From: a virus
DNA length: 29,684 bases
Virus record (IMG/VR): IMGVR_UViG_3300027834_000278
Coordinates: 1 to 29,684 of that record
Strand: one strand, 5' to 3'
Shown here: positions 2,982 to 25,456 of the stretch, piece after piece
How the letters are laid out: the number at the start of each line of letters is the position of its first letter
How positions within the stretch are numbered: position 1 is the stretch's first letter
Position numbers and translations under genes: made by a program
Notes under the pieces: model-generated
What the model was told of the DNA's origin: nothing
Seen by the model: the letters and a program-made list of their open reading frames with translations, nothing else
Databases searched by the model: none

Positions 2982-3058
2982 AGTATTTATTTGGTGGTAA
3001 AATTACGGTGGTAGAATAGACCTCACAAAACCATAATAAATTTTGTTATGCTGAAAAT

Positions 3059-3070
3059 AGGGCAAGCCCT
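3059..3070. repeat. Short inverted repeat AGGGC-AA-GCCCT
   Basis: Perfect 5-bp inverted repeat with a 2-bp centre in the gap between two divergent small genes. It may be a protein-binding site. Confidence 0.3.
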
Positions 3071-3170
3071 AACCCTATCACATTTAATATATTTTATTGA
3101 ACCAAACCACTTAAATAAAAGCGTACTAAAAATAACCACCCTAAAATTAGCACAGTAATTTGTAATTGCT

Positions 3171-3595: not shown

Positions 3596-4195
3596 ATGAA
3601 ATCACGATACGTAAGAATTTCCACGCCAGACCAAAAATATGAAAGGCAGTTAGTAACTAACCATCCAGATGAAAAGCTATATATAGATGTTTGTAGCGGT
3701 TCAATACCATTTGAAGAACGTGAGCAAGGTTCTTTGTTATTTGAAGCTGTAAAGTCTTCTAAGATAGATTATTTGAGTGTTAATGCTGTAGATAGGTTGG
3801 GTAGAAATCTATTAGATATATTAACCACACTTCAAACATTGGATAAATTGAATGTTACCGTGAAGGTAGATAATCTAGGTATTGAATCTAGGGTTAAGAA
3901 TAAGAGTAATCCAGCATTCAAATTAATTATTAGTGTATTGGCTAACATTAGTGAAATGGAACGTGAAACAATGTTAGAAAGGCAACGGGAAGGTATTGCT
4001 ATTGCCAAAGCTTCTGGAACTTATAAGGGTAGGGTAAAGGGTAGTACTGAAAGTGATAAAGAATTTTTGAGTAAGTATAAGGAAGTTATAAAATATCTCA
4101 ATCAAAAACAATCATTACGAAATACTGCAAAGCTATCTGGTGTATCATTGGCAACTGTTCAGAAGGTTAAGAAGATAGTTAAGGAAAATAAATAG
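3596..4195 (+). CDS. Small serine recombinase (resolvase/invertase family)
   Basis: A 199-aa recombinase of the Tn3-resolvase/DNA-invertase family. Seen: YVRISTPDQ with catalytic Ser9, VDRLGRN with Arg67 and Arg70, the long E-helix region (ISVLANISEMERETMLERQREGI), the typical GRVKGS linker, and a C-terminal helix-turn-helix (SLRNTAKLSGVSLATVQKV). Length is normal for the family. It could resolve multimers of an extrachromosomal form, or invert a segment. No obvious invertible flank is visible beside it, but the following ~1 kb without genes could hold its site. It is independent of the large integrase at the window start. Confidence 0.92.
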   Translation: MKSRYVRISTPDQKYERQLVTNHPDEKLYIDVCSGSIPFEEREQGSLLFEAVKSSKIDYLSVNAVDRLGRNLLDILTTLQTLDKLNVTVKVDNLGIESRVKNKSNPAFKLIISVLANISEMERETMLERQREGIAIAKASGTYKGRVKGSTESDKEFLSKYKEVIKYLNQKQSLRNTAKLSGVSLATVQKVKKIVKENK

Positions 4196-6375: not shown

Positions 6376-7062
6376 TTATTTATCTGTTATTAATTTCAAG
6401 GCCTGGACAAAACTTTGATTTTGTTGAAGCTTCTTTATGGATGTGTGGAATATATTTGAAATTGCCTGATGTGTCTTTCCTTCCTTTTCAGCCATAACCA
6501 CAAAGCTTATCTTTTCACCATCTTTTAACCCCAAATGATTGATAACTATATTGGCTTGACGTTCTTTCTTTAAACAGGCTCTAATTAGTTTAATTAAAGC
6601 TTCATTATTATTAACTTTTGGATTGTAATTATAACTTATTGAACTTTCCAATGGGTTGTAATCATCATCTGAATAGAATGTTGAAAAGGTTGTAGCGGAT
6701 GCAAAGTATTGGTCTTTGTTTTGTGTAGGTTGTCTAATAATATCCCTATCATTAGATTGGACATTAAGTTTATACATTTCGTTTCTTATTAGATAGCTTG
6801 CAAAGGTGGTGAAAGATGTTTTACACTTCCTTTGTTGGTAGGTGTCAACTGCTCTTAAAAGACCTTCAAAACCATAGCTAACGCAATCTTCAAGAGAATA
6901 ACCAGTATTGAAGCTAAATTTTTTTGCAAGGTGTAGAACAAGTGCAAGGTGGGATTTAACAATTTCATTTTTGTTTGCTATCCTGTCTTGTATCAGTAGG
7001 TTTACTTTTTCCTTTGAAAGTTTGGTGGAGTTTTGGGTGATGTAGGTAATTATATTATTCAA
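6376..7062 (-). CDS. Phage-encoded sigma-70-family factor
   Basis: A 228-aa sigma-70-like protein. Residues about 33-100 carry region 2: IVKSHLALVLHLAKKF, then a GYSLEDCVSYGFEGLLRAVDTY-type core-binding helix and a TSFTTFASYLIRNEM -10-recognition helix. Residues about 160-215 look like region 4 (a helix-turn-helix around KEGKTHQAISNIFHTSIKKL). The middle is Asn/Ser-rich and poorly conserved looking. The start is TTG at 7062; an in-frame stop lies just upstream and no other Met occurs before residue 97, so TTG is forced. The TTGA overlaps the stop of a 39-codon ORF, implying translational coupling. Likely role: directing host RNA polymerase to phage promoters. Confidence 0.8.
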   Translation of the reverse strand: MNNIITYITQNSTKLSKEKVNLLIQDRIANKNEIVKSHLALVLHLAKKFSFNTGYSLEDCVSYGFEGLLRAVDTYQQRKCKTSFTTFASYLIRNEMYKLNVQSNDRDIIRQPTQNKDQYFASATTFSTFYSDDDYNPLESSISYNYNPKVNNNEALIKLIRACLKKERQANIVINHLGLKDGEKISFVVMAEKEGKTHQAISNIFHTSIKKLQQNQSFVQALKLITDK

Positions 7063-8356: not shown

Positions 8357-8554
8357 GTATCAAAATGAACCTTCTTAAACGTATCAAAATGATACTTCTG
8401 CATTAAAAATATGTATATCAACAAGTAACCTGGTTTTTTTTAGTTGATAAATAGGGTATCAAAATGATACTTTTAGAATTAAGAGACATCAAAATGAGCC
8501 GATTTGTATTCTTCAGCTACTATAAATACTTAGAAGTATCAAAATGAGCCTTCT
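8357..8554. repeat. Five iteron-like repeats, GTATCAAAATGANNCTTCT
   Basis: Copies start at 8357, 8381, 8456, 8486 (most diverged) and 8536, all in the same direction, about 19 bp each. The core ATCAAAATGA is kept in all five. Copies 2 and 3 contain the dyad GTATC-AAAAT-GATAC; copies 1 and 5 are flanked by AGAAG and CTTCT, giving a longer dyad. Spacing is irregular (24, 75, 30, 50 bp between starts). Likely binding sites for an initiator or a regulator. Confidence 0.75.
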
Positions 8555-8678: not shown

Positions 8679-9152
8679 GTGACCGAAACAGAAAAGACAA
8701 AATTAATCCAAAAGATAATATTCAAATTTCCCAAACAATACAGTGAAGATTTGTTTAATGAATGCTATATCCAACTAGATGCAATTTTAAAGCGTTTCAA
8801 TAACGATATAGCTAGTATTAATACTTACAGCTACAAAAGACTTTATTACACCTGTATTGACTTCTTAGAAGCTAATCAACTTAATCAACCATCACTTGAT
8901 GAATTGGTAATTGATGAAGAAGGTAATGAAGAAAGAAAGATTGATTTGATTAAATCAGAATTGGATTTGGATTCCCAACTTGAAACTGATGATTACATAA
9001 GCAAGCACAATCAAAATTTATCTGAAGTAGAAAAATTCATTCAGAACAAATATTATAATGAAGGAGTTAGCGTAGCAACAATAATAAAGGTTTATCAACC
9101 CTATCACTTAATCAAGAGTGAAAAAACGATTTATAAAATTTTAAAAAAGTAG
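8679..9152 (+). CDS. Second sigma-like protein
   Basis: A 157-aa protein with a sigma region-2-like stretch at residues 8-65: EDLFNECYIQLDAILKRF followed by a SINTYSYKRLYYTCIDFL helix, closely parallel to core-binding and -10-recognition helices. An acidic linker (71-110) leads to a C-terminal segment (about 113-157) that could be a region-4 HTH. The start is GTG at 8679, overlapping the TAG of a 5-codon ORF (MLPNE), so re-initiation is possible. It heads a three-gene rightward operon directly behind the right promoter and dyad, the position of an early regulator. The similarity is to the fold pattern only; it could have become a sigma-derived regulator. Confidence 0.6.
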   Translation: MTETEKTKLIQKIIFKFPKQYSEDLFNECYIQLDAILKRFNNDIASINTYSYKRLYYTCIDFLEANQLNQPSLDELVIDEEGNEERKIDLIKSELDLDSQLETDDYISKHNQNLSEVEKFIQNKYYNEGVSVATIIKVYQPYHLIKSEKTIYKILKK

Positions 9153-9386
9153 ATGAATGTATATCAATTATTAAATCAACCGGATAACTTAAATACCATT
9201 GTAAAATTAATTAGAAACAAGATAGTACTTGATAGTTCGGTGATAACTCAAATATCAATCTATGACAAATTCTATCAGTTAGAAGGAAATAAAACTGAAC
9301 GTTATGAATTATTATCGAATGAATTCAGAGTATCACCAAAAACAATCCAAAGAATAATCAAGAAATTAAATAAAAAAGCAAAATGA
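9153..9386 (+). CDS. Small HTH DNA-binding protein, 77 aa
   Basis: Starts on the base after the preceding stop. The C-terminal half has a helix-turn-helix pattern (ERYELLSNEFRVSPKTIQRIIKKLNKKAK), with the basic recognition helix at the end. Likely a small transcription regulator or an accessory to the sigma-like protein. Its stop overlaps the next ATG (ATGA). No repressor of the cI class is otherwise visible, so this is one candidate for the protein that binds the twin dyads. Confidence 0.55.
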   Translation: MNVYQLLNQPDNLNTIVKLIRNKIVLDSSVITQISIYDKFYQLEGNKTERYELLSNEFRVSPKTIQRIIKKLNKKAK

Positions 9387-9697
9387 TAACTTGTAATGAA
9401 CTGCAAACAAATATGTATACCCTTAAAGGTAATTTAAAGGGCGTTAAACTCTTTTCCAAGTATGCACATAGCGATAACTTAGAACGAATGATTGAGCGTG
9501 ACATAACGTCTAATTTCAATCAGATTAATAAATTGAATATTGATGTGCAGATTGAAGATTATGAAGATGCAACTGAAATAAAACAATGCTCACTTTTCAA
9601 TTTTGAAATCTTAATTCAATTTAAGAACAAGAATAAAAATGATATGGAAGTATTGGAGTTTTTGGGTAAGTATCTAAGTGAAACTTTTGTAAAATGA
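9383..9697 (+). CDS. Hypothetical protein, 104 aa
   Basis: Soluble alpha/beta protein of unknown family, translationally coupled to the HTH gene by a 4-bp ATGA overlap. It begins MITCNELQTNMYTLKGNLKG and has alternating beta-like and helical segments (NLERMIERDITSNFNQINKLN; FNFEILIQFKNKN). It ends 10 bp before the stop of a convergent gene with no terminator between. No motif gives a function. Confidence 0.55.
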   Translation: MITCNELQTNMYTLKGNLKGVKLFSKYAHSDNLERMIERDITSNFNQINKLNIDVQIEDYEDATEIKQCSLFNFEILIQFKNKNKNDMEVLEFLGKYLSETFVK

Positions 9698-9707
9698 TTA
9701 TTTACCT

Positions 9708-10004
9708 TTAATTAATACGATTGAATGAATGATATTCATTTATTTCATTCATTGCATTTGGAGATAATTTAAATGCTACAATTATTTGATTAAATAATTC
9801 TTTTCTTGCTTCATTCTCAATTCTATATTGAATTTCTGGTTCAGCACCTAAATAATCATCCTCAAAATGTGGGTGATGGAAAACATCTAATACTTTACCA
9901 TTTCTTTTGTCTATTACACGGGTTCTAAAATTAACAATATTTTTAATTTTTTCTGAACCAGCGAAAAAGCACATTTTTTCACTTAAAAATTCTTTTTTAG
10001 TCAT
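9708..10004 (-). CDS. Hypothetical protein, 98 aa
   Basis: A small gene on the minus strand between two rightward units. It encodes a charged soluble protein with an F-H-H-P-H-F-E-D-D cluster near residues 42-50 that might bind metal. No family recognised. A TAGATTTG (TAnnTTTG) lies on the minus strand at 10037-10030, about 25 bp upstream of the ATG, at a good distance for a host-type promoter. Independent transcription from a host-type promoter would suit a gene expressed in the lysogen. Confidence 0.55.
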   Translation of the reverse strand: MTKKEFLSEKMCFFAGSEKIKNIVNFRTRVIDKRNGKVLDVFHHPHFEDDYLGAEPEIQYRIENEARKELFNQIIVAFKLSPNAMNEINEYHSFNRIN

Positions 10005-10022
10005 AATTGAAAATTTTTTAGT

Positions 10023-10048
10023 CGTTTCCCAAATCTAATACTATTTAT
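10023..10048 (+). promoter_or_regulatory. Third phage promoter-like element
   Basis: CGTTT (10023-10027), exactly 12 nt, then ACTATTTAT (10040-10048), the same geometry as the left and right elements of the control region. It lies 17 bp upstream of the ATG at 10066. No GTAAC dyad accompanies it. Confidence 0.4.
10030..10037 (-). promoter_or_regulatory. Host-type -7 element for the minus-strand gene
   Basis: TAGATTTG on the minus strand, about 26 bp before the ATG at 10004. A clear -33 TTTG is not seen (only a T-run). It overlaps the rightward phage promoter-like element at 10023-10048. Confidence 0.4.
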
Positions 10049-10065
10049 TATAAAAAGATAGTAAA

Positions 10066-10548
10066 ATGACATTTGAAGAACACATTAACACCGAAACAGA
10101 AACGATAGAATTTTTTGATTTAATCAATGAAGAAATTACAATTACAGAAATCAAAAATGAAGGATTTTCCAGATACGATTTTGAATTTTCATCCGGCACC
10201 ACAAAATCCCCACTCACCAAAAAAGGAATATGTGAGGTTAAGACCAGAACCAAATCTAAATCTAATTATGGTGATGGTATATTGATTGAATTGGATAAAC
10301 TCAATTCATTATTCCAAATTCTCAAACAGAAGAAAAGGGAAAATATTAATGATACGACAGGAGCATATTATCTATCAAAATTTGAAGACAAAACTTACTT
10401 GTTTGATTTAGGTGATTGTAAATTTGGAAATATACATTTTATCAGTTGTCCTGTTTCAAGTTCAGAAAATGGTTCTTCAGAATGGGTTTACAAACCTTGT
10501 TTTCTTTTAAAAGAAGCTGATGCGATAATGACAATCTATGAAGATTAA
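10066..10548 (+). CDS. Possible PD-(D/E)XK-type nuclease
   Basis: A 160-aa protein. Seen: RYDFEFSS (Asp38) followed after 18 residues by CEVKTR (Glu57, Lys59), then YGDGILIELDKLNSL, a helix-forming segment that resembles the element after the E-x-K strand in restriction-endonuclease-like folds. This D-(x18)-E-x-K pattern is compatible with a PD-(D/E)XK active site. The rest includes a beta-rich half (AYYLSKFEDKTYLFDL). It stands alone behind the third promoter-like element and is closed by a strong terminator before the virion operon. A recombination or host-DNA nuclease role is possible; the fold call is tentative. Confidence 0.4.
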   Translation: MTFEEHINTETETIEFFDLINEEITITEIKNEGFSRYDFEFSSGTTKSPLTKKGICEVKTRTKSKSNYGDGILIELDKLNSLFQILKQKKRENINDTTGAYYLSKFEDKTYLFDLGDCKFGNIHFISCPVSSSENGSSEWVYKPCFLLKEADAIMTIYED

Positions 10549-10571
10549 TTAGTTGACTACTAATTGATATA

Positions 10572-10598
10572 AAGCACTCTTAATGGGGTGCTTTTTTT
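10572..10598 (+). terminator. Rho-independent terminator before the virion operon
   Basis: AAGCACTC (10572-10579) pairs with GGGTGCTT (10586-10593), including one G-U, 6-nt loop, with a T-run through 10598. It separates early/accessory from late transcription. Confidence 0.85.
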
Positions 10599-10602
10599 AT
10601 TA

Positions 10603-10620
10603 AGGACAACCAAGTGTCCT
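10603..10620. promoter_or_regulatory. Inverted repeat AGGACA-N6-TGTCCT
   Basis: Perfect 6+6 dyad just after the terminator and about 40 bp before the first virion gene. No TAnnTTTG promoter lies in this gap, so the dyad may be part of a late promoter or operator. Confidence 0.45.
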
Positions 10621-10635
10621 ATTCTACCAAAACAG

Positions 10636-10667
10636 GCTCAATACTGCTGATATAGTAGTATATGAGC
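10636..10667 (+). promoter_or_regulatory. Hairpin enclosing the start codon of the first virion gene
   Basis: GCTCA + ATACTGCT (10636-10648) pairs with AGTAGTAT (10654-10661) and TGAGC (10663-10667): 13 pairs including one G-U, a GATAT loop, and a single bulged A at 10662, which is the A of the ATG. The T and G of the start codon are in the stem. It may mask translation start until something opens it, or be a DNA operator dyad. Confidence 0.55.
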
Positions 10668-11768
10668 AATAAAGCTACAATTTATATAACTGGTGAAATA
10701 GGTGTTGATGTTGAATTAATCGACGTTGTACGCCAATTTAAATCTTTTGACAATCCAACCGAAGCCGAAATAATTATTGACAGTAACGGGGGATTTGTAA
10801 ATGTTGGTAAATCTATACACAATTATATAAAATCATTAGACATCTCAACTACTACCATAGCAAAAGGAATGTGTGCTTCAATAGCATCATATATCTTTTT
10901 CGCAGGTGATACAAGACAGATGTATGAAGATGCAGAAATAATGATACACCTGCCTAGCGGTCAAGTTGGTGGTACTGCTCAAAATATAGAAGATTATTCA
11001 AAAACATTAAGGGATTTAGAAGCTGAATTAGCAGCATTCTATACGCCCTTTTTCAATTTAGATGATAAAACAATCTATGCTTTGCTAGAACAGGAAACTT
11101 GGATTGATAGCGGAACAGCGATGGATATGGGTATTGTGAATTCAATTCTTGTTCCACTTAAAGCTGTGGCAAAATTTGATAATAACAAAGAAGATAAAAA
11201 TGACAAAATGAATAAAAAAGAGAAATCATTTTTCAAGGCATTCAAAGATTTTTTCACTGAACAATTTGAAGAAACTGAACCAACAAATTTAATGGTTCAA
11301 GATGCAAATGGTGATGAAATAAACTTTCCAGAATTGGATGTAGATGATACACCTACTGTAAAAGATGGTGAAACAGCAGGAAGTAAAGCTGTGGATTCTG
11401 ATAACAACCCAATCGAAGGTGAAAGAACAGCAATTAATGGTGATGTATGGGTTTTTGAAGCAGGTGAATTAATTGAAATCAAGAAAGCTGAATCAGAAGA
11501 AGAAACTGAAGAAGCAGAAGTTGAAGACAAGGTAGAAGAAGAAATTACTGATGAATTCGATGCCGAAGCTTTAATAGAACAAATTACAGACGGTGTAGTT
11601 GCAAAGGTTACTGCAATGTTTACCGAAGAAAATAAGGCTGTAAAAGCTGAATTAAATAGCCTTAAAAAGCTAGTTGGAAGTGAAGATACTTCAATTGCTC
11701 CAACGAATATGAATAACAATACCAATTCTAAAAGCACAACAAATTATTTAAGTGCGCTTAGAAAATAA
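10662..11768 (+). CDS. ClpP-type prohead protease fused to scaffold domain
   Basis: A 368-aa capsid maturation protease. Residues 1-165 form a ClpP-like (S14) serine protease: IIIDSNGG, the nucleophile elbow GMCASIAS with Ser73, and IMIHLPSG with His96; Asp149 in the following WIDSG segment is a candidate third residue. Residues about 175-368 are acidic, Glu/Ala-rich and low complexity (EEETEEAEVEDKVEEE), ending in a helix and an Asn/Thr-rich tail, as expected for an internal scaffold that the protease digests. It directly precedes the capsid gene, the usual order. Its start codon lies in a hairpin. In some relatives protease and scaffold are separate genes; here they are one chain. Confidence 0.88.
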   Translation: MSNKATIYITGEIGVDVELIDVVRQFKSFDNPTEAEIIIDSNGGFVNVGKSIHNYIKSLDISTTTIAKGMCASIASYIFFAGDTRQMYEDAEIMIHLPSGQVGGTAQNIEDYSKTLRDLEAELAAFYTPFFNLDDKTIYALLEQETWIDSGTAMDMGIVNSILVPLKAVAKFDNNKEDKNDKMNKKEKSFFKAFKDFFTEQFEETEPTNLMVQDANGDEINFPELDVDDTPTVKDGETAGSKAVDSDNNPIEGERTAINGDVWVFEAGELIEIKKAESEEETEEAEVEDKVEEEITDEFDAEALIEQITDGVVAKVTAMFTEENKAVKAELNSLKKLVGSEDTSIAPTNMNNNTNSKSTTNYLSALRK

Positions 11769-11792
11769 TAGAAAAAAAATACTAACTAAAAA

Positions 11793-12707
11793 ATGGCTTA
11801 CAATGTTTCAAATTTTAGCGAATACATCACAAAGGAAAATGCAGTATTAACTAGCATTTTGTTTGCAGGTGGTGATACAGGAAAATTCGCAATGCACATT
11901 ACAAATGTGAAAGGGAGTACAAAAGTACCTCACTTATCAAAGGATGCAACCTTACAAAAAGGTAGCTGTGTTAACCCTAGCGGTTCAGCAAACCTTAACG
12001 AAATAACACTTTCAGTAGAACCTTTTACAGTATTTGACGATTACTGTCAAGACGATTTAGAAAACCTTTTACCTAACACGGTATTGGCTCCCGGTTCTAA
12101 TAATGGTGATACACTTACTTGGGAAGAAAAGTTGGTTGAAACTACAATCGCTTCTATCCAAGAACAATTAGAAATGAACTACTGGCAAGGTAATTCTACT
12201 GGTGGAACTCACAACTTATTTGATGGTTTCATAGTAAAAGTAGATGCTGATAATAACGTAATTGATGGAAATACTTCAAGTGCATCTACCATTACTACTT
12301 TAAATGTAAAATCTTTAGTAGAAGATATGAGAATATCTGCACCTGCTAAAGTTAAAAGAAGTGCTGATTATGTAACACTTGTTGGTGATGATGTATTCGA
12401 TATGTACATAGCAAAAGAAAAAGCTGACAATTTATATCACTACAAACCAGAACACGACAATGGAGTTTACTCAATCGGTGGTGGTCAAGGTAAATTAATC
12501 AGAGTTTACGGATTAAATGGTACTGACAGAATGTTTAGTGGATTAGGTTCTTCTTTCATTGTTGGTTCAGATGTAGAAAATGAATCAAATGTTGCAGAAG
12601 TATTCTATGACCAAACAACTGATAAAATGTACATCAGAGTGAAAGCTAAAGCAGGTGTTGCAATAAGCAATGCAGATGAAATAGTTGAATTCACAGTATC
12701 AGCATAA
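11793..12707 (+). CDS. Major capsid protein (HK97-like fold expected)
   Basis: A 304-aa protein with the size, position (right after the protease/scaffold) and beta-rich composition of a major capsid protein. It has an N-terminal helical part, a middle with a VETTIASIQEQLEMNYWQG helix (spine-helix-like) and a C-terminal segment of alternating strands (YIRVKAKAGVAISNADEIVEFTVSA). No single diagnostic motif exists, so the call rests on context. The leader ACTAACTAAAAA before the ATG closely matches that of the terminase small-subunit gene. A 13-bp hairpin follows the gene. Confidence 0.8.
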   Translation: MAYNVSNFSEYITKENAVLTSILFAGGDTGKFAMHITNVKGSTKVPHLSKDATLQKGSCVNPSGSANLNEITLSVEPFTVFDDYCQDDLENLLPNTVLAPGSNNGDTLTWEEKLVETTIASIQEQLEMNYWQGNSTGGTHNLFDGFIVKVDADNNVIDGNTSSASTITTLNVKSLVEDMRISAPAKVKRSADYVTLVGDDVFDMYIAKEKADNLYHYKPEHDNGVYSIGGGQGKLIRVYGLNGTDRMFSGLGSSFIVGSDVENESNVAEVFYDQTTDKMYIRVKAKAGVAISNADEIVEFTVSA

Positions 12708-12732
12708 TAACTGATAATTAATAATAACAATA

Positions 12733-12766
12733 ATAGGGAAGTGGTGCTAAACCCACCACTTCCTAT
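12733..12766 (+). promoter_or_regulatory. Long stem-loop after the capsid gene
   Basis: ATAGG-G-AAGTGGTG (12733-12746) pairs with CACCACTTCCTAT (12754-12766), 13 pairs with one bulged G and a 7-nt loop. No T-run follows, so it is more likely an mRNA-stabilising or processing hairpin than a full terminator. Confidence 0.7.
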
Positions 12767-12785
12767 ACTATAAAAAATAAAATAA

Positions 12786-13361
12786 ATGGCTTGTAATAAA
12801 AAATTAACCGAAGATATATTATTTGGTTGTGCTGATGCCGGTAAAGCATTCTTAGCTGATGGTACAGCAGTACTAATCAACTATGAAGATATTGATTGGA
12901 CATCAACAACTACTAGCGGTGCAACTGTTACAGAATTAACACTTAAAAGTGGTTCTACTGGATATAAGTTGGAATGGTACAGAAACTTAGGAAATGTTTC
13001 TTCACAATTTAATAAAGACACAGAAAACTATGATGGATTTGGACACAGTTTCATCTGTAGATTACCAAATTCTAGTGCTGCAAATGCAGAAAGAGCAACC
13101 GAATTAAAGGGTGGAAAATATGCAGTTGTTGTTAAGACCAACTACAAAGGTGTTGATAATAAGGATGCATTCAAAATGTACGGATTTGAAGGTATGGAAC
13201 TTTCTGAAATGACCAATGCTACTAACGAAAATGCAGGTTCTACTTTATATACTTTAGCAACTCCTGAACAGGTGGTTGAAGAATACTTATACAGAGTACT
13301 ATTGGAAACTGATTATGCTACAACTCAGGCATCATTTGATAGCTTGTTTGTAGAAGCATAA
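12786..13361 (+). CDS. Virion structural protein, probable major tail (tube) protein
   Basis: A 191-aa beta-rich protein following the capsid gene. It starts MACNKKLTEDILFGCADAGKAF and has strand patterns (ATVTELTLKSGSTGYKLEWYRN; GGKYAVVVKTNYKGVD) in keeping with a tail-tube-like sandwich. It is bracketed by hairpins at 12733-12766 and 13387-13414, as often seen for highly expressed structural genes. A head-decoration protein is the alternative. The call is by position and composition. Confidence 0.5.
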   Translation: MACNKKLTEDILFGCADAGKAFLADGTAVLINYEDIDWTSTTTSGATVTELTLKSGSTGYKLEWYRNLGNVSSQFNKDTENYDGFGHSFICRLPNSSAANAERATELKGGKYAVVVKTNYKGVDNKDAFKMYGFEGMELSEMTNATNENAGSTLYTLATPEQVVEEYLYRVLLETDYATTQASFDSLFVEA

Positions 13362-13386
13362 TCAATCAAATTAACTAAAGAAAAGA

Positions 13387-13414
13387 GGTGGGAAGGGGTA
13401 ATACTTAACCCACC
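13387..13414 (+). promoter_or_regulatory. Stem-loop after the structural gene
   Basis: GGTGGG (13387-13392) pairs with CCCACC (13409-13414); an inner GGGT/ACCC pairing is an alternative. No proper T-run (only ATTTTC). Like the hairpin after the capsid gene, it could set mRNA levels or stability. Confidence 0.5.
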
Positions 13415-13428
13415 ATTTTCAATTAATT

Positions 13429-13932
13429 ATGATACACGAAATAATAAATCTTCCAGACCATAAGCTGAAAAATCATATTGATTTATTGGCGATAGACTAC
13501 AAAGAAAAAACTGGAAGAACTGTCTGCAAAAGTTGCCCTAGTGACCTTCAGCAGATGGTATTGACACTAAAGAAAATATATAATATGACACAATTTGAAT
13601 TGAAGAAACCATTTGTAATTTATAAACTTCAAAAGCATAATCCCCAAACCATTAGTAATGATAAAATGACTGATGAATTGGCTATTGCATTTTTAAAGAT
13701 TAATCCAAATAGAATTGAATTGTTTGGAAAATATCCTGAGAATTGGAAAGAACTTATTGGTGATGAATTTAATGTTTCAACCGAAAAGAAACCTTGTAGT
13801 GATTGCAAGAAAAAATCTAAGCTTTTAAATACTAATATGAATGATTTAAGGGAGCAATACCCATCAATAAAGGCAACTTCTAAAGCAGATTTTGTTGACC
13901 AGATATTAACCCTTAATAATGAAAATTTATAA
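13429..13932 (+). CDS. Hypothetical virion-region protein with CxxC pairs and SAP/HeH-like end
   Basis: A 167-aa protein just upstream of the portal. Two CxxC pairs (CKSC near residue 38, CSDC near 123) could bind a zinc ion. The C-terminal 35 residues (LNDLREQYPSIKATSKADFVDQIL-like pattern) resemble a helix-extended-helix SAP/HeH motif common in phage head genes. Its stop lies 14 bp inside the portal gene. Possibly a head-tail adaptor or minor head component; I do not recognise the family as a whole. Confidence 0.5.
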   Translation: MIHEIINLPDHKLKNHIDLLAIDYKEKTGRTVCKSCPSDLQQMVLTLKKIYNMTQFELKKPFVIYKLQKHNPQTISNDKMTDELAIAFLKINPNRIELFGKYPENWKELIGDEFNVSTEKKPCSDCKKKSKLLNTNMNDLREQYPSIKATSKADFVDQILTLNNENL

Positions 13933-15043
13933 TGATGTTAGACATACCATACTTGACGTTAAAATCGATAAACGTACTGAAGTTTATAATTGGGGGCTTG
14001 ATAACAAATTTCCGAGCCTTATTGAAACACTTATCAATTTAAGTGTCACTTCATCAACTTGTATTCAGAAAGTAAGTAAAGCAGTATACGGTAAGAGTTT
14101 CGGAGATATTGGGAAGGTAATTGTAAATTCTGATGGTCAAACATTGAATGAAGTTTTACGTATTGCTTCAAGAGAATACTCTAAGCACAACAACCTTTTT
14201 ATTCACATAGGTTACAATGCACTTTTAGAAATTAAATCTATTAAAGTTATTCCCTGTAAATCTGTTAGAATTGGTAAACAAGATGATTTAGGATATAGCG
14301 GAAAATATATCGTTGCAGATTGGGAAGATAGACCAAAACCAGAAGAATTCAGAATTTATGACCGTTACAGCCCAATTCAAACAGTTATACAATCTCAAAT
14401 TGAAAAAGCAGGTAGCATTACAAGTTACAAAGGTCAAATCTTACATCTTCAAAAAGACACTAATAGTATTTATTCACTACCAGATTTGAACCCTGTTATG
14501 AGTGAAGCGTTATTGGAACATAATTCACAACTTTTTAGGTCAAATTCTAGCGAAAGAGGTTTCACAAATACTAAGCTTTTAACTATTAAACCATTTTCGA
14601 GCGATGATGAAAGAAGGCAATTTCATAATAAGTTGAACGAACTACAAGGTACAAAGAACAGTGGTTCCGTACTTCTTATGGAAAGTACAAATGTTTCTGA
14701 CAATTTAGATAATGAAATAAAATTATCTGATTTAACAAGTGAATACAATGATGAACTATTTGCTTATTCAGATAGCCAAGCCGAAAAGAATATCTGCAAG
14801 GCATTTGGGGTGCCTGTGGTGCTTGTTGATAGTTCAAATGATGGATTATTTGGAAATAGTGGTGAAATGCTTCTAGAAGCTAAAAAACAACTGTATGAAA
14901 GCAGGGAAGAAGAACGAGATATGATTGAAGAAATGTTTCAAAAATTACTATCCAATTTTCATAAACCAATTGAAGGTGAGTTAAAAATTATTTCACCATT
15001 TCAAGAGCAAATAACATCACCGGAACAAACAATTTCAGAATGA
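13919..15043 (+). CDS. Portal protein
   Basis: A 374-aa protein with portal features: an N-terminal wing start (VYNWGLDNKFPSLIETL), a central GQILHLQKD / NSIYSLPDLNPVMSEALLEHNSQLFRS segment, and the strongly portal-like C-terminal helices (AEKNICKAFGVPVVLV, LFGNSGEMLLEAKKQLYE). It is somewhat shorter than typical 400-500-aa siphovirus portals. The portal forms the dodecameric DNA entry ring and docks the terminase. It overlaps its upstream neighbour by 14 bp and its downstream neighbour by 4 bp (ATGA), so it is translated in a coupled series. Confidence 0.8.
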   Translation: MKIYNDVRHTILDVKIDKRTEVYNWGLDNKFPSLIETLINLSVTSSTCIQKVSKAVYGKSFGDIGKVIVNSDGQTLNEVLRIASREYSKHNNLFIHIGYNALLEIKSIKVIPCKSVRIGKQDDLGYSGKYIVADWEDRPKPEEFRIYDRYSPIQTVIQSQIEKAGSITSYKGQILHLQKDTNSIYSLPDLNPVMSEALLEHNSQLFRSNSSERGFTNTKLLTIKPFSSDDERRQFHNKLNELQGTKNSGSVLLMESTNVSDNLDNEIKLSDLTSEYNDELFAYSDSQAEKNICKAFGVPVVLVDSSNDGLFGNSGEMLLEAKKQLYESREEERDMIEEMFQKLLSNFHKPIEGELKIISPFQEQITSPEQTISE

Positions 15044-15552
15044 ATTTAATACTAACACCTGAACAGTTTGCAACCTACCGTGACGTAGGTAGTAAGTTAG
15101 ATAAAGATAAAATTAATGAGTGCATCAAACTATCACAAAATATAGATTTATATGATGTATTAGGTGATTTCTTATTTGAAGTGATTGAGAATTCAGAAGA
15201 AACAGATTTTAATGATTTAATGAGTGGTTCAACCTTCACAATAGATAACCAAGACTATCATCAAGAGGGTATAAGAAGCGTTTTAAGCGACCTTGTTTAT
15301 TCAAGGTATGTCTATCTAGTTAATACCAATTTTACACCATTTGGAGCAACACAAAAATTTGGTCAAGACAGTTCACCAGTTGATAGGAACCTATTAAAAG
15401 ATATTTCAAAGCAAGCACAAATAGATGCTAGTATAAAGTTTCAAATGGTAGACAAATTTTTGAAATCAAACAGAACCCAATTCCCTAGATATAAACAGGG
15501 AAACAACCCAAACATCAACACAAATTCACAAAGATTTTCTGTGATAAAATAA
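15040..15552 (+). CDS. Head-tail connector protein
   Basis: A 170-aa helical protein immediately after, and overlapping, the portal gene (ATGA). Its N-terminus (LTPEQFATYRDVGSKLDKDKINECIKLSQN) and internal SDLVYSRYVYL helix fit the short helical connector proteins (gp6-like / DUF6712-like) found after the portal in Bacteroidota phages. These form the ring below the portal. Recognition is by pattern and context. Confidence 0.55.
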   Translation: MNLILTPEQFATYRDVGSKLDKDKINECIKLSQNIDLYDVLGDFLFEVIENSEETDFNDLMSGSTFTIDNQDYHQEGIRSVLSDLVYSRYVYLVNTNFTPFGATQKFGQDSSPVDRNLLKDISKQAQIDASIKFQMVDKFLKSNRTQFPRYKQGNNPNINTNSQRFSVIK

Positions 15553-15577
15553 CAAAGAATACAACCCCAAATTTTAA

Positions 15578-16324
15578 ATGGATTACAATAGTTCAATCAT
15601 TGAAGTATTTAGAAAAATAACAAGAAAACAAGCATTCATAATTGCGATTCTAGCAAGCATATTTCTATTTGGATATTTCATAGCACCTACAGTTTTTGAT
15701 TACATAAATAAATCTGATGAGCGTAAGGAAAAAAGGATTGAACGAGAAATAGATGTGGAAAAGGAAGTTAATAGAAGGTTGGATTCCATTAACGATGAAA
15801 AAAAGAGAGTGGAAGCTGAATTATTCATTTTTAAAAACAACCAGATTGTTGATTTAATGGCTTATTTGGAAAGAAGAATTACTACTTCAACACATATAAC
15901 CATTTTTTCAATTCATAATGGTGGGGGAACACCTCGTACCGGTGGCGAAGCAAAAGTTTCAGTTCTATATACAACAGATAATATTAGGGGTGTTGACTTG
16001 AAGAAGGATTGGGAAAACAGAGAACTTTATGATGGAGTGGCTGATTATGCCTACGAAATGCTTAGAAGAAAGGGAAAACCATTCTATGTTAATGCTGTAA
16101 AAAAATATCCATCCATTTATGAAGGGAAAACTAAAATCTATATGAACTCCATTGGTACAAAATCAATGTATGGAATGTGGATTAAAACGGGAACCACAGC
16201 AACCTACTACATTTCAATGAGTTTTGATGAAGAATATGGTGTTGATATAGAAGGTGTTGAAAGGGTTTCAAATCTAATGGAAAACGCTAGAACTAGACTG
16301 ATTTCCCTATTAGATGTAAAATAA
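15578..16324 (+). CDS. Membrane-anchored protein with coiled coil and C-terminal sensor-like domain
   Basis: A 248-aa protein. One transmembrane helix at about 19-38 (AFIIAILASIFLFGYFIAP), a charged coiled coil at 45-85, and a globular domain at 86-248 (STHITIFSIHNGGGTPRTGGEAKVSVLY...) whose strand/helix order recalls GAF-like sensory folds. It lies in the virion operon between connector and tail fibre, an odd place for an anchored protein. It may be a lysis accessory, an inner-membrane injection factor or a moron. No holin motif is present; function is unknown. Confidence 0.6.
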   Translation: MDYNSSIIEVFRKITRKQAFIIAILASIFLFGYFIAPTVFDYINKSDERKEKRIEREIDVEKEVNRRLDSINDEKKRVEAELFIFKNNQIVDLMAYLERRITTSTHITIFSIHNGGGTPRTGGEAKVSVLYTTDNIRGVDLKKDWENRELYDGVADYAYEMLRRKGKPFYVNAVKKYPSIYEGKTKIYMNSIGTKSMYGMWIKTGTTATYYISMSFDEEYGVDIEGVERVSNLMENARTRLISLLDVK

Positions 16325-16345
16325 CATAAGAATTAAAGAATATGA

Positions 16346-18808
16346 ATGGCAGTAATAATAAATTCAACAGGTGACAACACTTTCAGCCTAAATAATACAA
16401 CCTATGCAAAGATTTTTCAACCCTTAAAATTGGGATTGGAAAATATTGCTATTTATAACAAATATGACACCAAACAACAAATTTTAGGTAGTACTAGATA
16501 TGATGAAGTTTCATTAAATGGTCAAACCTACAATAATCAAGATGAACTTTTAACAGCATTGGTAAATTCAATTACTAATCCAGATTTACCTGCAATAATA
16601 GATGATGTTTTAAGCCAATTGGAAGGATTACAAAGCGGTTTCCAAGGGGCAATTGATAGTACTGATACTTTACCAAGCGATGGGTATTATTTAGCATCAG
16701 CAAATGGTACATATAGTAATGCAGGTGGAATTGTAGTAAACTTAAATAACGGTATTCATTATATCACAAAACAGAATGGTTCTTTTGATTTAGTTGTTGT
16801 TCCAATCTCTATTCAAACTACAGATAATATTATAAAGGATAGTACGAGACTAATTGAATCTGGTGGGTTATACAAGTTTAAAAAGGATTTTGATTTATTG
16901 AATAAAGTTGGAAAAAACTTATTTGATAAGGAATTTATTATCGATGGAAAGGGACTTTCAAATGATGGTACATTTTTTAGTAATGCTACAAGAAATGTAA
17001 CTGAAAGAATAATTGTTTCTGCAAATACGACTTATGCTTGTACCGATGTTAGGAAAGTAAGTTTTTATGATTTCTTGGGTGTACACTTAGAGCATTTTAG
17101 CCCTGCATCAGTTATAACTAGTCCTGCTAATTCTGTATATGCAGTCCTAAGTGTAGATGATTCTAATTTAGATTCAGCACAATTTGAAGTTGGTAGTGGT
17201 ACCACAACTTATGAACCATATAAAAGAGAATTAAAAGCAAATACAGTTAATGCTGAAAGTTTGAATGACTTATCAGTAAATACTGAAGCAATCAATAAGG
17301 ATGCAGTACAACCTTGGCAATTCAAGGATGTTGGATTCTTAAATATGCACGATGGAACACTAATTAGTGGTACTTCTATAAACTTAAATGATGGTGTCAC
17401 ATTGTTAACTAATGCATCTTTAGATTGTACATATTTTATACCGTGTCAACCATTAACTGAATATTCCGCAGGGGAAATGAGCAGGGTATTATTCTATGAT
17501 GAAAATAGAAATTGGTTGTCTGTAGGTCAAAACCTAACTTTTACAACTCCTAGTAATTGCCACTGGTTGAGATTTAACCTTTCCGCAGCAGTAAGTTATA
17601 GATTCCAATTAAATGAAGGTAGCGTAGCAACAACACCATTTCCACAACCTTATAAATTCTTTTTCAAAAATCAATTTATAAATCAGACTAAGCAAGATTT
17701 AACTGAAATCACCAAAAGGAAATACAACCTTGTAGATGCTTATTATCATTGGTTGGATGGACAAAAATTTCCAGTTGCAATATTAGGTGATAGCACCACA
17801 AACGGTAATGATACAACTGACCATACATATAGACCTGCTGAACCAGAATATTATGATGATTTTTTAACCTCACCAAACAGTTACTGTTCAGTACTTCAAA
17901 ATTTATTACGTGAAGAAACTGGTAATGACATTTTAAGAATATACAACGCAGGTTTTAGTGGTAGAAATAGTGGTTGGGCGTTAACCAATATTGAAACAAT
18001 CTTTGGTGGTGATTATAGTGATGTTAAGATGGTTGGTATTAGTCACGGTATCAATGATAGGACTAACGATTACAAATTTATGTCTGAACTATTTTATGAT
18101 AGAATTGAAGGGATAATTAAATGGTGTCTTGATAATGATATTCAACCTTTTCTTATGACCTCACAACCAGTTATACAACCCTTTAATTCAGTTGCGGTTG
18201 GTAAAGATTCTGAACACGTTGTAACTGTCAGTAATAGAATTAAAAAAGAATTAGCTGATAAATGGGGGTTAGAATTAGTTGATGTTCACGATATGTCAAC
18301 CAATTTGATGTCTAATTCATTGATACCATTAAAAAATCAAATCTTCGGTCTAGGGGAAAATATTATTCATTTCGGTGATGCCGGACACAAATTCACAGCG
18401 GAGTTATTGTTTTCTCATTTCTGCCCTAGGGTTATATGGAGTGAAGGTGGTGAGATTTTAGATTTTTCCACACAGGGTATTAAGAGTACAGTTAGCTATT
18501 TGGATGTATCATTGTTGGACACATTCGATAATGGTTTTAAAATCAAAGCTAACTACATCAAGGATAATTCAGATGATGAATTGTTACAAGATTTTCTTGT
18601 ATTCAATACCTCAAAAAAACAATACAATCTAAACGCATTTGGTACAGGTAATTTGGAAGATGCCTATGTAAAGGTAAATGGTGTTGATAATACTATGACT
18701 TCTTTAAATACTTCAATGGGTGTTTTAGATATTGGTTTACACAAGTTGCAAGTATGGTCTGGACTTACAGATAAAGTGAAGTGGTTAGGTTTAAAATTGA
18801 CCGATTAA
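16346..18808 (+). CDS. Tail fibre/spike with SGNH (GDSL-like) hydrolase domain
   Basis: An 820-aa protein. The N-terminal ~110 residues look like a virion-attachment region, followed by beta-rich repeats including two similar carbohydrate-binding-like segments (about 180-295 and 325-430). Residues about 470-700 form an SGNH hydrolase: block I ILGDSTTNG with Ser483, GISHGINDR with Asn570, and DAGH with Asp678 and His681. The C-terminal ~120 residues are beta-rich. SGNH enzymes deacetylate surface glycans, so this is probably the receptor-binding and surface-modifying protein. An overlapping ATG four bases upstream (16342) is out of frame. Confidence 0.85.
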   Translation: MAVIINSTGDNTFSLNNTTYAKIFQPLKLGLENIAIYNKYDTKQQILGSTRYDEVSLNGQTYNNQDELLTALVNSITNPDLPAIIDDVLSQLEGLQSGFQGAIDSTDTLPSDGYYLASANGTYSNAGGIVVNLNNGIHYITKQNGSFDLVVVPISIQTTDNIIKDSTRLIESGGLYKFKKDFDLLNKVGKNLFDKEFIIDGKGLSNDGTFFSNATRNVTERIIVSANTTYACTDVRKVSFYDFLGVHLEHFSPASVITSPANSVYAVLSVDDSNLDSAQFEVGSGTTTYEPYKRELKANTVNAESLNDLSVNTEAINKDAVQPWQFKDVGFLNMHDGTLISGTSINLNDGVTLLTNASLDCTYFIPCQPLTEYSAGEMSRVLFYDENRNWLSVGQNLTFTTPSNCHWLRFNLSAAVSYRFQLNEGSVATTPFPQPYKFFFKNQFINQTKQDLTEITKRKYNLVDAYYHWLDGQKFPVAILGDSTTNGNDTTDHTYRPAEPEYYDDFLTSPNSYCSVLQNLLREETGNDILRIYNAGFSGRNSGWALTNIETIFGGDYSDVKMVGISHGINDRTNDYKFMSELFYDRIEGIIKWCLDNDIQPFLMTSQPVIQPFNSVAVGKDSEHVVTVSNRIKKELADKWGLELVDVHDMSTNLMSNSLIPLKNQIFGLGENIIHFGDAGHKFTAELLFSHFCPRVIWSEGGEILDFSTQGIKSTVSYLDVSLLDTFDNGFKIKANYIKDNSDDELLQDFLVFNTSKKQYNLNAFGTGNLEDAYVKVNGVDNTMTSLNTSMGVLDIGLHKLQVWSGLTDKVKWLGLKLTD

Positions 18809-18835
18809 TAACATTGAAGAAAAAGATTATGAGAA

Positions 18836-19282
18836 TTGAAAATTTCAAAAGAGGGTTTAGACCTAATTAAAAAATACGAAGGATTTAGAAACCATCCATA
18901 CTTATGTAGTGCTAATGTACCTACAATAGGTTACGGTAATACATACTACCCAAACGGAAATAAGGTCACACTAAATGACCCACCAATCACAAAACAAAGA
19001 GCAGAAGAACTACTATTGATTATTGTTGCATCCTTTGAAAAAGGTGTTAACAGATTGGTTAAATCTTCAATAAATCAAAATCAATTTGATGCATTGGTTT
19101 CATTCGCTTACAACTTAGGGGTAACAGCATTATCTACTTCAACTTTACTTAAAAAAGTAAATGTTAATCCAAATGACCCATCAATTAAAAATGAATTTAA
19201 AAAATGGGTTAATGCAGGTGGAAAAAGATTGAAGGGATTGGTGAGAAGAAGAAATGAAGAAGCTTTTCTTTATTTCAAATAA
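18836..19282 (+). CDS. GH24 lysozyme (phage endolysin)
   Basis: A 148-aa T4-type lysozyme of normal length. Catalytic Glu15 lies in KKYEGFRNHPY, with Thr30 and GYGNT following; NQNQFDALVSFAYNLG and RRRNEEAFL are family hallmarks. The E-x8-D-x5-T triad has Cys24 at the Asp position, a variant known in other phage lysozymes. No signal peptide or SAR anchor, so a holin should be needed, and none is certain here. The start is TTG at 18836; the ATG at 18829 is in another frame and opens only a short peptide. It lies between the fibre and terminase genes. Confidence 0.9.
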   Translation: MKISKEGLDLIKKYEGFRNHPYLCSANVPTIGYGNTYYPNGNKVTLNDPPITKQRAEELLLIIVASFEKGVNRLVKSSINQNQFDALVSFAYNLGVTALSTSTLLKKVNVNPNDPSIKNEFKKWVNAGGKRLKGLVRRRNEEAFLYFK

Positions 19283-19303
19283 CAGAGAATATTAACTAAA
19301 AAA

Positions 19304-19864
19304 GTGGCAAATAAAGAACCAAAATTTCAAAAAGGGGAAAAGGCAAAAGTTTTTATGTACAAGATGAAAGAAGTTCTTGAAGATGAGAATACAACATTAT
19401 TATCTGATAGAGATATTTTCTACCTAGTTAACTCTAAACTAACTCCAGAACTTAGAATCTCGATGAGTTACTTTGAGTTTCTTAAAAGTCCAAATCAATC
19501 AAACCCTAGAAGTATAAGTAGTAACCAATCTCTTTCAGATGAAGAAAAAGAAGAGTTTTTAAACATTCTAAATGTTGGTAGGGTATTACAAAAAATGAAT
19601 TTAACTGCTAAAGCTTTTGATGATGAAAAGAAAAACGCATATCCGTATTTGTGGGCTTTAGAAAGAAAAAATTCACACTTACAGTTAAAACAAAATCTGC
19701 AAATAGGGAACGGAAATATCACACTTCAAATTGAAGGTGCTGATGCAAAATTGATTGATGCAATAGACATCGATTATGATGAATTAGAAGAAGAAAAAGA
19801 ACAACTATTAATAACGAAAAAAGATAAAGATGATGGTATAAGTGAAGCTAACAACGGCATTTAA
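19304..19864 (+). CDS. Terminase small subunit (probable)
   Basis: A 186-aa helical, charged protein directly upstream of, and overlapping by 23 bp, the large terminase gene. It would recognise the packaging site. The N-terminal part (about 10-60) could be the DNA-binding helical domain; residues about 135-150 (NGNITLQIEGADAKLIDAIDIDYDEL) form a beta/acidic segment that may contact the large subunit. The start is GTG at 19304, supported by its leader, which matches that of the capsid gene (AATATTAACTAAAAAA before the start). No conserved signature; called by position. Confidence 0.6.
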   Translation: MANKEPKFQKGEKAKVFMYKMKEVLEDENTTLLSDRDIFYLVNSKLTPELRISMSYFEFLKSPNQSNPRSISSNQSLSDEEKEEFLNILNVGRVLQKMNLTAKAFDDEKKNAYPYLWALERKNSHLQLKQNLQIGNGNITLQIEGADAKLIDAIDIDYDELEEEKEQLLITKKDKDDGISEANNGI

Positions 19865-21017
19865 TAAGATTGCAAAATTAAAAGATAGAACTAGAATTGT
19901 TCAGGGTGCCGGGGGTTCTTCAAAAACCTATTCCATTCTACAATACTTAATAATTCTTTGTACTAAAGCGAAAAGACCATTAACAATATCAATTGTTTCA
20001 GAGTCATTCCCACACCTTAGAAGAGGTGTTGCAAAAGACTTAATAGATATTCTTCAAGATAATAACCTATATGATGAAAAACACCACAATAAAACAAACA
20101 ATAGTTACAAATTAAACGGCTGTACAATTGAATGGTTTGGTGTTGAAGATGGTGCAAAATTAAGAGGTGCTAGAAGGGATATATTATTTGTTAATGAAGC
20201 GAATAATATTAATAGGGAAGCATTCACACAGCTATCTATTAGAACAAAGGAATTTATATTTCTTGATTATAACCCTAGTCACTTAGGTTTCATTAGGGAA
20301 TATATAAAACCCGATAAATCCAACTTTGTAAAACTTACTTATTTGGATAATGAATTTTTATCTAAAGCTGTAATACAAGAATATCAAAATGCAATTATAA
20401 AGGCTCAAAATGGTAGTTCTTATTGGCAAAATTTTGTTGATGTATATGTGTATGGTGAAGAAGGGCAGGTAGAAGGTTGTATATATGATTATACAGTAAT
20501 TGATGAAATACCTGACAACTGCAAATATTTGGGAGCAGGTCTGGATTTTGGTTTTAATGACCCAAGTGCAATTTCCAAAATCTACCTAAGAGGTGAAAAA
20601 GATTTAATAATTGATGAATCACTTTACAAAAGTGGATTGTTAAATACCCAAATAGTAAAACACATTCTTCAGGATGTCGAATTAAGTCAAAATATAATTA
20701 TTGCTGATAGTGCCAGACCTGAAATTATTGCAGAATTAAGAAATAATAGAATACCTGCAAAAGCTGTAAAAAAAGGTGCAGGTTCAATTTTGGACGGTAT
20801 TTCAATTCTACAGGGTTACAATCTATTTGTTACCAAAAGAAGTGAAAATATTATTTCTGAATTGAATAATTACACTTGGGAGAAAGATAAAAATGGTGAA
20901 AAATTAAATACACCGATTGATAAACATAATCACGGCTTAGATGCTGTTAGATATTTTGCAATGGAAAGATTATCGAGTAGGAATAACAATTACAATAGTT
21001 TAAGATGGGTCAGCTAA
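19842..21017 (+). CDS. Terminase large subunit (PBSX-type)
   Basis: A 391-aa packaging ATPase-nuclease. Walker A-like GAGGSSKT at residues 22-29; Walker B DILFVNE at 113-119 with Glu119; motif III-like FLDYNPS at 140-146. The RNase-H-like nuclease has Asp235 in GLDFGFNDPSA, Asp289 in IIADSARPE and Asp367 in HGLDAVRYF. The start is GTG at 19842, inside the small-subunit gene, so it is translationally coupled; the Walker A motif 21 residues later agrees with it. Unusually, packaging genes lie 8 kb downstream of the capsid genes. Confidence 0.95.
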   Translation: MKLTTAFNKIAKLKDRTRIVQGAGGSSKTYSILQYLIILCTKAKRPLTISIVSESFPHLRRGVAKDLIDILQDNNLYDEKHHNKTNNSYKLNGCTIEWFGVEDGAKLRGARRDILFVNEANNINREAFTQLSIRTKEFIFLDYNPSHLGFIREYIKPDKSNFVKLTYLDNEFLSKAVIQEYQNAIIKAQNGSSYWQNFVDVYVYGEEGQVEGCIYDYTVIDEIPDNCKYLGAGLDFGFNDPSAISKIYLRGEKDLIIDESLYKSGLLNTQIVKHILQDVELSQNIIIADSARPEIIAELRNNRIPAKAVKKGAGSILDGISILQGYNLFVTKRSENIISELNNYTWEKDKNGEKLNTPIDKHNHGLDAVRYFAMERLSSRNNNYNSLRWVS

Positions 21018-21557
21018 ATGGAAACGATTAAGAATTATAGGTTAAAAGACTTTCTTACAAAAGACAGGGAATTGATTGCAGAGTATATGAATGTATTACA
21101 ATTCACAGCACCCGTCTTCACCAAAAAGAAAGTATTCCATTTAAAATTGAAACAAGTTGAATTCATCAAACAGAATTTAAACAGCAATGATGATAAAGCA
21201 ATAATAAAAATTATCTCAATTGTTCAGAAATGTAAAAAAAAGGAAATCTTAAAAATGCCAATTGTCAAGTTCTTTGGATTGTATAACAGCGTAAAAGAAC
21301 AGATTGAAAAAATATCTAATGCGGAACAAAATAGCTTAACAACAGAAATTACTAATATCAAATGGGAAGCTGTTAACGGAAGTGAGCGTATGCAAAAATA
21401 TGCGATTTACAACACTTTAGATGCACTAGCGGAAGGGGATATATTAAAATATAATAAAATAATGAATTTACCATATTCAGAGGTTTTTACGAAGCTTCTA
21501 ATGGAAAAGGAAAAGAAAGCACTTCAAGATGAAATGAATGCGATTAAAACAACTTAA
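21018..21557 (+). CDS. Hypothetical helical protein, 179 aa
   Basis: Begins on the base after the terminase stop. Almost entirely helical and Lys/Glu-rich (e.g. IKIISIVQKCKKKEILKMP; NKIMNLPYSEVFTKLLMEKEKK). The LPYSEVFTKLLM pattern near the C-terminus is reminiscent of tail-assembly chaperones, but I see no frameshift site with a second ORF. Position between terminase and neck genes suggests a virion assembly role. Family not recognised. Confidence 0.5.
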   Translation: METIKNYRLKDFLTKDRELIAEYMNVLQFTAPVFTKKKVFHLKLKQVEFIKQNLNSNDDKAIIKIISIVQKCKKKEILKMPIVKFFGLYNSVKEQIEKISNAEQNSLTTEITNIKWEAVNGSERMQKYAIYNTLDALAEGDILKYNKIMNLPYSEVFTKLLMEKEKKALQDEMNAIKTT

Positions 21558-21562
21558 AACGA

Positions 21563-21973
21563 ATGTACGATGTATTAAAAACCATAGCAACTATTAATAA
21601 TTGGGTATTCCAATACGCAAGAAAAGACTATGCAAATCTATTTGATGAAGCTGAACAAATTGGCGTACCTCATATTTTTTTAGACCCGGTTCAGATTGAT
21701 ACAGTTTTTGATGAATTTAATGAACCAATTTCAACTAGTTATGAAGGTTCTTTTATGTGCTTGGTGTCCAGTGATATTGATGAAGAAAACTATGATTACA
21801 AGTATCAAACCCATATCAAGCCATTAGCTACTACAGCCCTAAATAATATCAAGGATTATGTAAGATGTAATACAGATATAAGTATAACAAATTGGCGTGA
21901 AGTAGAAGTTATCAATGTATTCGATTATAACCTAGATGGGATTTTAGTAACCTACAAATTAGATGAACAGTAA
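21563..21973 (+). CDS. Probable neck/head-closure protein
   Basis: A 136-aa protein, MYDVLKTIATINNWVFQYARKDY..., with mixed strands and helices (STSYEGSFMCLVSSDIDEENYDYKYQTHIKPL). It lies immediately before a gp10-like gene, which it overlaps by 11 bp, the arrangement of stopper/tail-completion genes in siphoviruses. Assigned by size and position; no motif is decisive. Confidence 0.45.
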   Translation: MYDVLKTIATINNWVFQYARKDYANLFDEAEQIGVPHIFLDPVQIDTVFDEFNEPISTSYEGSFMCLVSSDIDEENYDYKYQTHIKPLATTALNNIKDYVRCNTDISITNWREVEVINVFDYNLDGILVTYKLDEQ

Positions 21974-22415: not shown

Positions 22416-22417
22416 TA

Positions 22418-25437: not shown

Positions 25438-25456
25438 ATAATACGCCTATGTAGAA

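Follow-up and report, generated by a model that had tools for sequence, protein, structure and literature searches.

The DNA analysed here is a virus record of 29,684 bases (IMGVR_UViG_3300027834_000278), called the window in its full length; W denotes the window's copy wherever related phages are compared. Serine-recombinase genes and a replication-like gene are present, together with a virion block (10662-28084) whose genes all lie on the plus strand. The first ORF of this block encodes a ClpP-like head maturation protease, in agreement with the first-pass annotation, which had placed a capsid protease at the head of a 17-kb virion operon; an operon of this extent is a reasonable prediction. 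The features that precede and overlap the protease start are collected in Table 1. From the end of the terminator T-run to the protease ATG there are about 65 nt in W and about 34 nt in the related phage L002, which leaves little room for another promoter. Elsewhere in the window, four direct repeats of GTATCAAAATGAnnCTT (at 8357, 8381, 8456 and 8536; 8357-8552) lie between the replication-like gene and the sigma/HTH operon and are possibly iterons or operators, and two resolvase-family recombinase genes (1-1611 and 3596-4195) are present in the one phage. An Rfam RNA-family search of the whole window gave no match, and a tRNA search of the window found none.

Table 1 Features upstream of and at the start of the virion block
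Feature	Position	Strand	Basis or remark
Sigma-factor-like gene, 157 aa, GTG start	8679..9152	+	Opens the operon that precedes the late block
77-aa helix-turn-helix (HTH) protein, Mor/C-like candidate late activator	9153..9386	+	Pfam Mor, PHROG, co-occurrence
'up' gene, last before the proposed late promoter	10066..10548	+	Homologues at the same place in 7 other phages
Intrinsic terminator closing the upstream operon	10571..10594	+	Relatives have dyads at the same place
Upstream dyad AGGACA-accaag-TGTCCT, proposed activator site	10603..10620	.	Centre 10611.5, 50.5 nt before the A of the ATG
13-bp hairpin	10636..10667	+	Register not conserved
Palindrome, family register, TGCTGATATA-gtag-TATATGAGCA, one mismatch	10645..10668	.	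Shuffle tests
-10-like element TGATATAGT, hexamer TATAGT 10651-10656	10648..10656	+	Dyad-centred alignment
ClpP-like head maturation protease gene	10662..11768	+	Transcript predicted, from the -10 spacing, to begin at the ATG or no more than about 2 nt from it

Relatives were found with the portal gene and portal alignments, and more were added with alignments of the 'up' gene and the protease; the protease alone or the 12786 gene alone retrieved no relatives as a query, and wider genome searches yielded few more. Thirteen phages share the region type of the window (group A: W, L037, L010, L011, L014, L015, L026, L002, L062, L064, L065, L066 and L067), and seven have another region type (group B: L005, L007, L008, L009, L004, L019 and L024). 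L037 is the nearest relative of W, with a protease 62% identical, while L010 sits in a Tamlana genome and L011 in a Mariniflexile genome. Duplicates were removed before counting (L003 and L013, equal to L010; L012 to L002; L052 to L037; L061 to L062; L063, the same region as L064; L016-L018 and L022, equal to L005 and L007-L009; L020 to L019), as were four loci in which the start of the protease gene is absent (L006, L021, L023 and L025) and the distant L027. Nine loci drawn by the 'up' alignment (L043-L051) do not have this late block after the gene and were excluded, and six distant prophage loci (L053 and L087-L091) served as an outside test.

The first-pass annotation had described the protease start codon as locked in a 13-bp hairpin with the A of the ATG as its only bulge. 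Direct reading confirmed this: GCTCA (10636-10640) pairs with TGAGC (10663-10667) and ATACTGCT (10641-10648) with AGTAGTAT (10654-10661), giving 13 pairs with one G10646.U10656 and with A10662 bulged. RNAfold placed the hairpin in both the MFE and the centroid structures of 10590-10720 (z -2.42; 3 of 200 shuffles were equally good). When the upstream 45 nt were shuffled, the cost of opening the ATG (4.98 kcal/mol) had p=0.020 and that of opening -10 to +12 had p=0.007. The hairpin is real and moderately unusual for AT-rich DNA. Its register was examined in an ungapped alignment of eight of the 13 group A phages with 500 shuffles. In the 13-bp register 59.6% of cells pair, a value that 21 of the 500 shuffles reach, and the register is not conserved in L037, the nearest relative. 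Compensatory changes, proposed as a check of the helix, did not bear it out, as seven pairs changed on both sides and 136 of 500 shuffles reached that number. On the other hand, opening the ATG costs at least 3 kcal/mol at 8 of 13 group A protease starts versus 8 of 170 other ORFs (rank test, p 0.0004), and the start codon is paired, in unlike sequences, in L037, L010, L011, L002, L064, L065 and L066; the cost is below 3 kcal/mol in L014, L015, L026, L062 and L067. Something is selected or shared at protease start codons, but it is not the 13-bp register of W. In L067 a 9-bp hairpin is predicted (3045-3075) that has the protease ATG in its tetraloop, not in the stem.

A second dyad lies between the terminator and the hairpin, and its inner part (10604-10619 in W) is a 16-bp inverted-repeat site, GGACA-N6-TGTCC, with 5-bp repeats and without a host TAHHTTTG element. 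Relatives carry stems of quite different sequence at the same distance from the ATG. The dyad centre is 50.5 nt from the ATG in W, L037, L010, L011, L015, L062, L066 (where the dyad is an A/T run) and L067, and 49.5 nt in L002, L064 and L065; the dyad is thus within 1 nt of the common place in 11 of 13 group A phages. In L014 and L026 the ATG is 13 and 28 nt further down, and the dyad, at 63.5 and 78.5 nt from it, is still 39 nt from the -10-like element. Summed over the 13 phages, the dyad score peaked at 72, 49.5-50.5 nt before the ATG, compared with shuffled maxima of mean 25.6 (sd 3.5, highest 38), so that 0 of 300 shuffles reached it; the sum was 81 if L014 and L026 were measured from the -10. 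In L064, L065 and L067 dyads elsewhere scored as high or higher, the highest being at 53.0, 57.5 and 59.0, and their dyads at 49.5-50.5 were used for the dyad-centred alignment. No dyad at 50.5 was found in the six distant prophage loci, one of which has a weak HTH relative.

When the group A sequences were aligned on the dyad centre only, the best-conserved eight columns lay 42-49 nt rightward, with 4.06 bits against 1.98 (sd 0.28) in shuffles, none of 500 of which reached that value. Together with the preceding two or three columns they hold TATAGT, TATAAT, TATAAC, TATGAG and similar hexamers. An exact TATARY is found 39 nt from the dyad centre in W, L037, L010, L011, L062 and L026 and at 36 nt in L067. 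The element is TATGAG in L014, is poor in L002, L015, L064 and L065, and is not evident at the expected place in L066. Five bases separate the hexamer from the ATG in W, L037, L010, L011 and L062. In L026 TGATATAATAGTATATG is retained, even with a protease start that is 28 nt further down; in that phage (2308-2347) the block is followed by a six-codon ORF (MGYLNP) and then by the protease start. The combination of dyad, 39 nt and TATARY is not unique in a single-genome scan, where a minus-strand site of W at 2566 scores higher.

The spacing of the hexamer bears on where the message begins. For the phage sigma factor gp36 of phiEco32, the part of PMC8948821 used here describes promoters with one element, 6-8 bp downstream of which transcription starts; a gp36-like start at that distance would fall on the ATG. 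Since the message has to include the ATG, only about 0-2 nt would be left for a leader. The predicted start is at or within about 2 nt of A10662, and the message would be leaderless or nearly so. Leaderless mRNAs make up 5.5% in F. psychrophilum, i.e. they are rare in such hosts (PMC9723704).

The upstream operon encodes two proteins that could act at such a promoter. Members of the HTH family match Pfam Mor in 8 of 12 cases at E up to 1 (best 5.1e-5), the W copy reaching 0.023, below the curated cut-off of 24.9 bits, and PHROG families of late transcriptional activators gave weak matches in 6 of 12 and 5 of 12 members. In a comparison with the Mor/C fold by VIA-align, the HTH model matched 1rr7 (Z 5.1, 52 aligned, 3.2 A) and 9l0x (Z 5.0, 51 aligned, 3.7 A), with which HetR and Mu transposase rows tie; a Foldseek search with the model gave nothing significant, and the HTH profile had no match in PDB. 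All 13 group A phages have the gene, which in L067 lies at another place in the record. None of the 7 group B records has it; two of these are short fragments. There is a hint that HP[NK] recognition helices go with the dyad half-sites AAC..GTT in L010, L011, L014, L015 and L062, and S[PA][KR] with GACA..TGTC in W and L026. The W copy of the sigma-like protein is by itself below detection, and its region 2 homology rests on the family: in the family alignment (A6) 10 of 11 members match phrog_351, RNA polymerase sigma factor (best 2.2e-15), 9 of 11 match Pfam Sigma70_r2, and all 14 matches of the A6 profile in PDB are sigma factors (best 9.9e-7). The model (pLDDT 74) had sigma factors on top in Foldseek (best E 7e-3). 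Sigma70_r4 was matched in 1 of 11 members at 0.2, and the model aligns over residues 1-157 to many sigma rows with high rmsd. The A6 gene occurs in 11 of 13 group A and 0 of 7 group B phages; it is missing from the 20-kb record of L015, and in L067 a different sigma-70 gene lies 0.6 kb away from the HTH gene. A second sigma-like gene lies at 6376-7062 on the minus strand (Sigma70_r2, 1.8e-10) and is also found in the L037, L002 and L011 records and twice in L014, indicating that these phages can carry at least two sigma-like genes.

Group B served as a control. Its summed dyad score, 19, does not form a peak, since 205 of 300 shuffles reach that value, and the housekeeping Bacteroidota -7 element TAHHTTTG is found within 60 nt of the protease ATG in 7 of 7 group B and 0 of 13 group A phages. 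Ahead of the protease gene, group B thus has housekeeping TTTG / TAHHTTTG (sigma ABfr) promoters at a position where no such element is found in any of the 13 group A phages. The distance from TAHHTTTG to the ATG is 5-6 nt in L008, L019, L024 and L004 and 17-27 nt in L005, L007 and L009. In F. johnsoniae, 4-5 nt separate the element from the start, according to the part of PMC6847099 used here, and with this spacing transcripts of L008, L019 and L024 would likewise begin on the ATG or beside it. Part of the sister group would accordingly have a promoter at nearly the same place, with a start on or near the codon.

We consider it likely that a temperate Bacteroidota phage has the late promoter of its virion operon at this site, served by the phage's own activator and probably a phage sigma factor, with a start at about the ATG. 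The upstream operon (8679-10548), ending at the terminator, would make the sigma-like and the 77-aa Mor/C-like proteins. The latter would bind the dyad at 10603-10620 as a dimer, centred at about -50.5, and RNA polymerase, probably with the phage sigma factor, would open the DNA at TATAGT. The virion mRNA would then be translated with no leader or almost none, and the 5' arm of the hairpin would be promoter DNA, not message. The first-pass annotation had named a transcript start downstream of 10640 as telling against an RNA hairpin, and the predicted start, at about 10660-10662, would lie there. Its second suggestion, a DNA dyad read by a late regulator, is supported in general form, but the likely regulator dyad is the one 50 bp upstream, and the hairpin region would be the -10 and the start.

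On this account, which is the simplest, the hairpin would arise incidentally from an AT-rich -10/start region that is partly palindromic. If transcripts read through from upstream by antitermination at 10571-10594, the leader would carry the helix, the start codon would be hidden and protease synthesis would await its opening. We regard this as unlikely. The helix is part of the MFE structure, and protease start codons are buried in excess, in seven relatives within unlike sequences; but relatives do not keep the 13-bp register, and the ATG opens at low cost in five phages. Furthermore, the spacings of the dyad and the -10 hardly vary by a nucleotide, a precision that RNA hairpins do not require, and L026 retains the promoter block away from its protease start. 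A helix that restrains protease translation, as had been proposed, is unsupported in its own register, and the element looks like a promoter. What speaks for that earlier reading, besides the excess burial, is a weak covariation of the palindrome in another register. In this family register, with a 4-nt centre, pairing is 76.3% and five pairs changed on both sides, each reached by 2 of 500 shuffles. Excess predicted RNA structure at start codons is not explained by a promoter alone and counts against the late-promoter model, as do the rarity of leaderless mRNAs in such hosts, the poor or missing -10-like element in several group A phages, the competing dyads in L064, L065 and L067, the A/T run in L066, the offset from the Mu Pm position and the lack of the dyad at this position in the six distant prophage loci.

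The same palindrome could be an operator, bound by a repressor or by the HTH protein itself and overlapping the -10 and the start, a rather unlikely reading that is compatible with the late-promoter model. Besides the family-register pairing, it is favoured by ungapped dyads over the ATG, which reach p<0.05 in W, L037, L010, L011, L065 and L066, the first five with a 4-nt centre. However, about half of the phages are without the extended palindrome (p<0.05 was not reached in L014, L015, L026, L002, L062, L064 and L067), and the inner pairs follow from TATA conservation in TGATATA..TATATG. In addition, in W, L026 and L062 the commonest left half, TGATATA, and its mirror TATATGA bring two Gs face to face, where the G of the ATG would need a C. 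What remains puzzling is that palindromes over the start are in excess in about half of the phages; this may reflect an overlapping operator or, in some phages, a true RNA helix. Highly improbable is chance, that is, an AT-rich intergenic stretch with two unrelated dyads. The hairpin in W alone has only p 0.007-0.02, and sites like TGATATARTAGTATATG with up to three mismatches are expected 0.77 times per window, but the comparative signals were reached by 0 of 300 and 0 of 500 shuffles. Chance is contradicted by these shuffles for the upstream dyad and the -10 block, and not so contradicted for the 13-bp hairpin.

The proposed late promoter resembles several known systems. The P2 Ogr late system has an activator dyad near -55 and no -35, and the T4 gp55/gp33 late system joins a sigma-like protein and a partner at a -10-only promoter. 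The phage sigma-like proteins gp36 of phiEco32 and gp47 of 7-11 are a further likeness, but those phages are unrelated, and here an upstream dyad and an HTH protein are present. At the Mu promoter Pm, a 16-bp site whose two 5-bp repeats are bound by a dimer of Mor replaces the -35, and like the Mu middle and late promoters (Mor, C) the present site would combine a small HTH activator with a -10 and no host-type second element, as far as the part of PMC4390567 used here describes them. Unlike at Pm, the dyad is centred at -50.5, 7 bp further upstream than -43.5, assuming a start at the ATG. The protein has 77 instead of 129 residues and matches Pfam Mor under the curated cut-off, a sigma-like gene accompanies the activator, and the host is a Bacteroidota bacterium. 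The site offset and the accompanying sigma-like gene argue for a variant of activator-dependent phage late promoters and not for a member of the Mor system. Among the papers listed in the literature searches of this analysis, none describes late promoter control in flavobacterial phages.

If the late-promoter reading is right, it also calls for caution with hairpins predicted over start codons, since the DNA in question can belong to a promoter. In a broader reading, which we hold to be evenly poised, a Bacteroidota phage family has swapped the host virion promoter for a private one, in which a sigma-like and a Mor/C-like protein act on the -50.5 dyad and TATARY, and the start codon is the transcript start. 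If this is true, a leaderless message would head the whole virion operon in hosts where such messages are rare, and in the sister group a host promoter would lie almost equally far from that codon. If the late-promoter model is right, it would provide a case of a promoter coinciding with a start codon, and a compact activator-plus-sigma switch with its late promoter for a phylum whose promoters are unlike those of E. coli.
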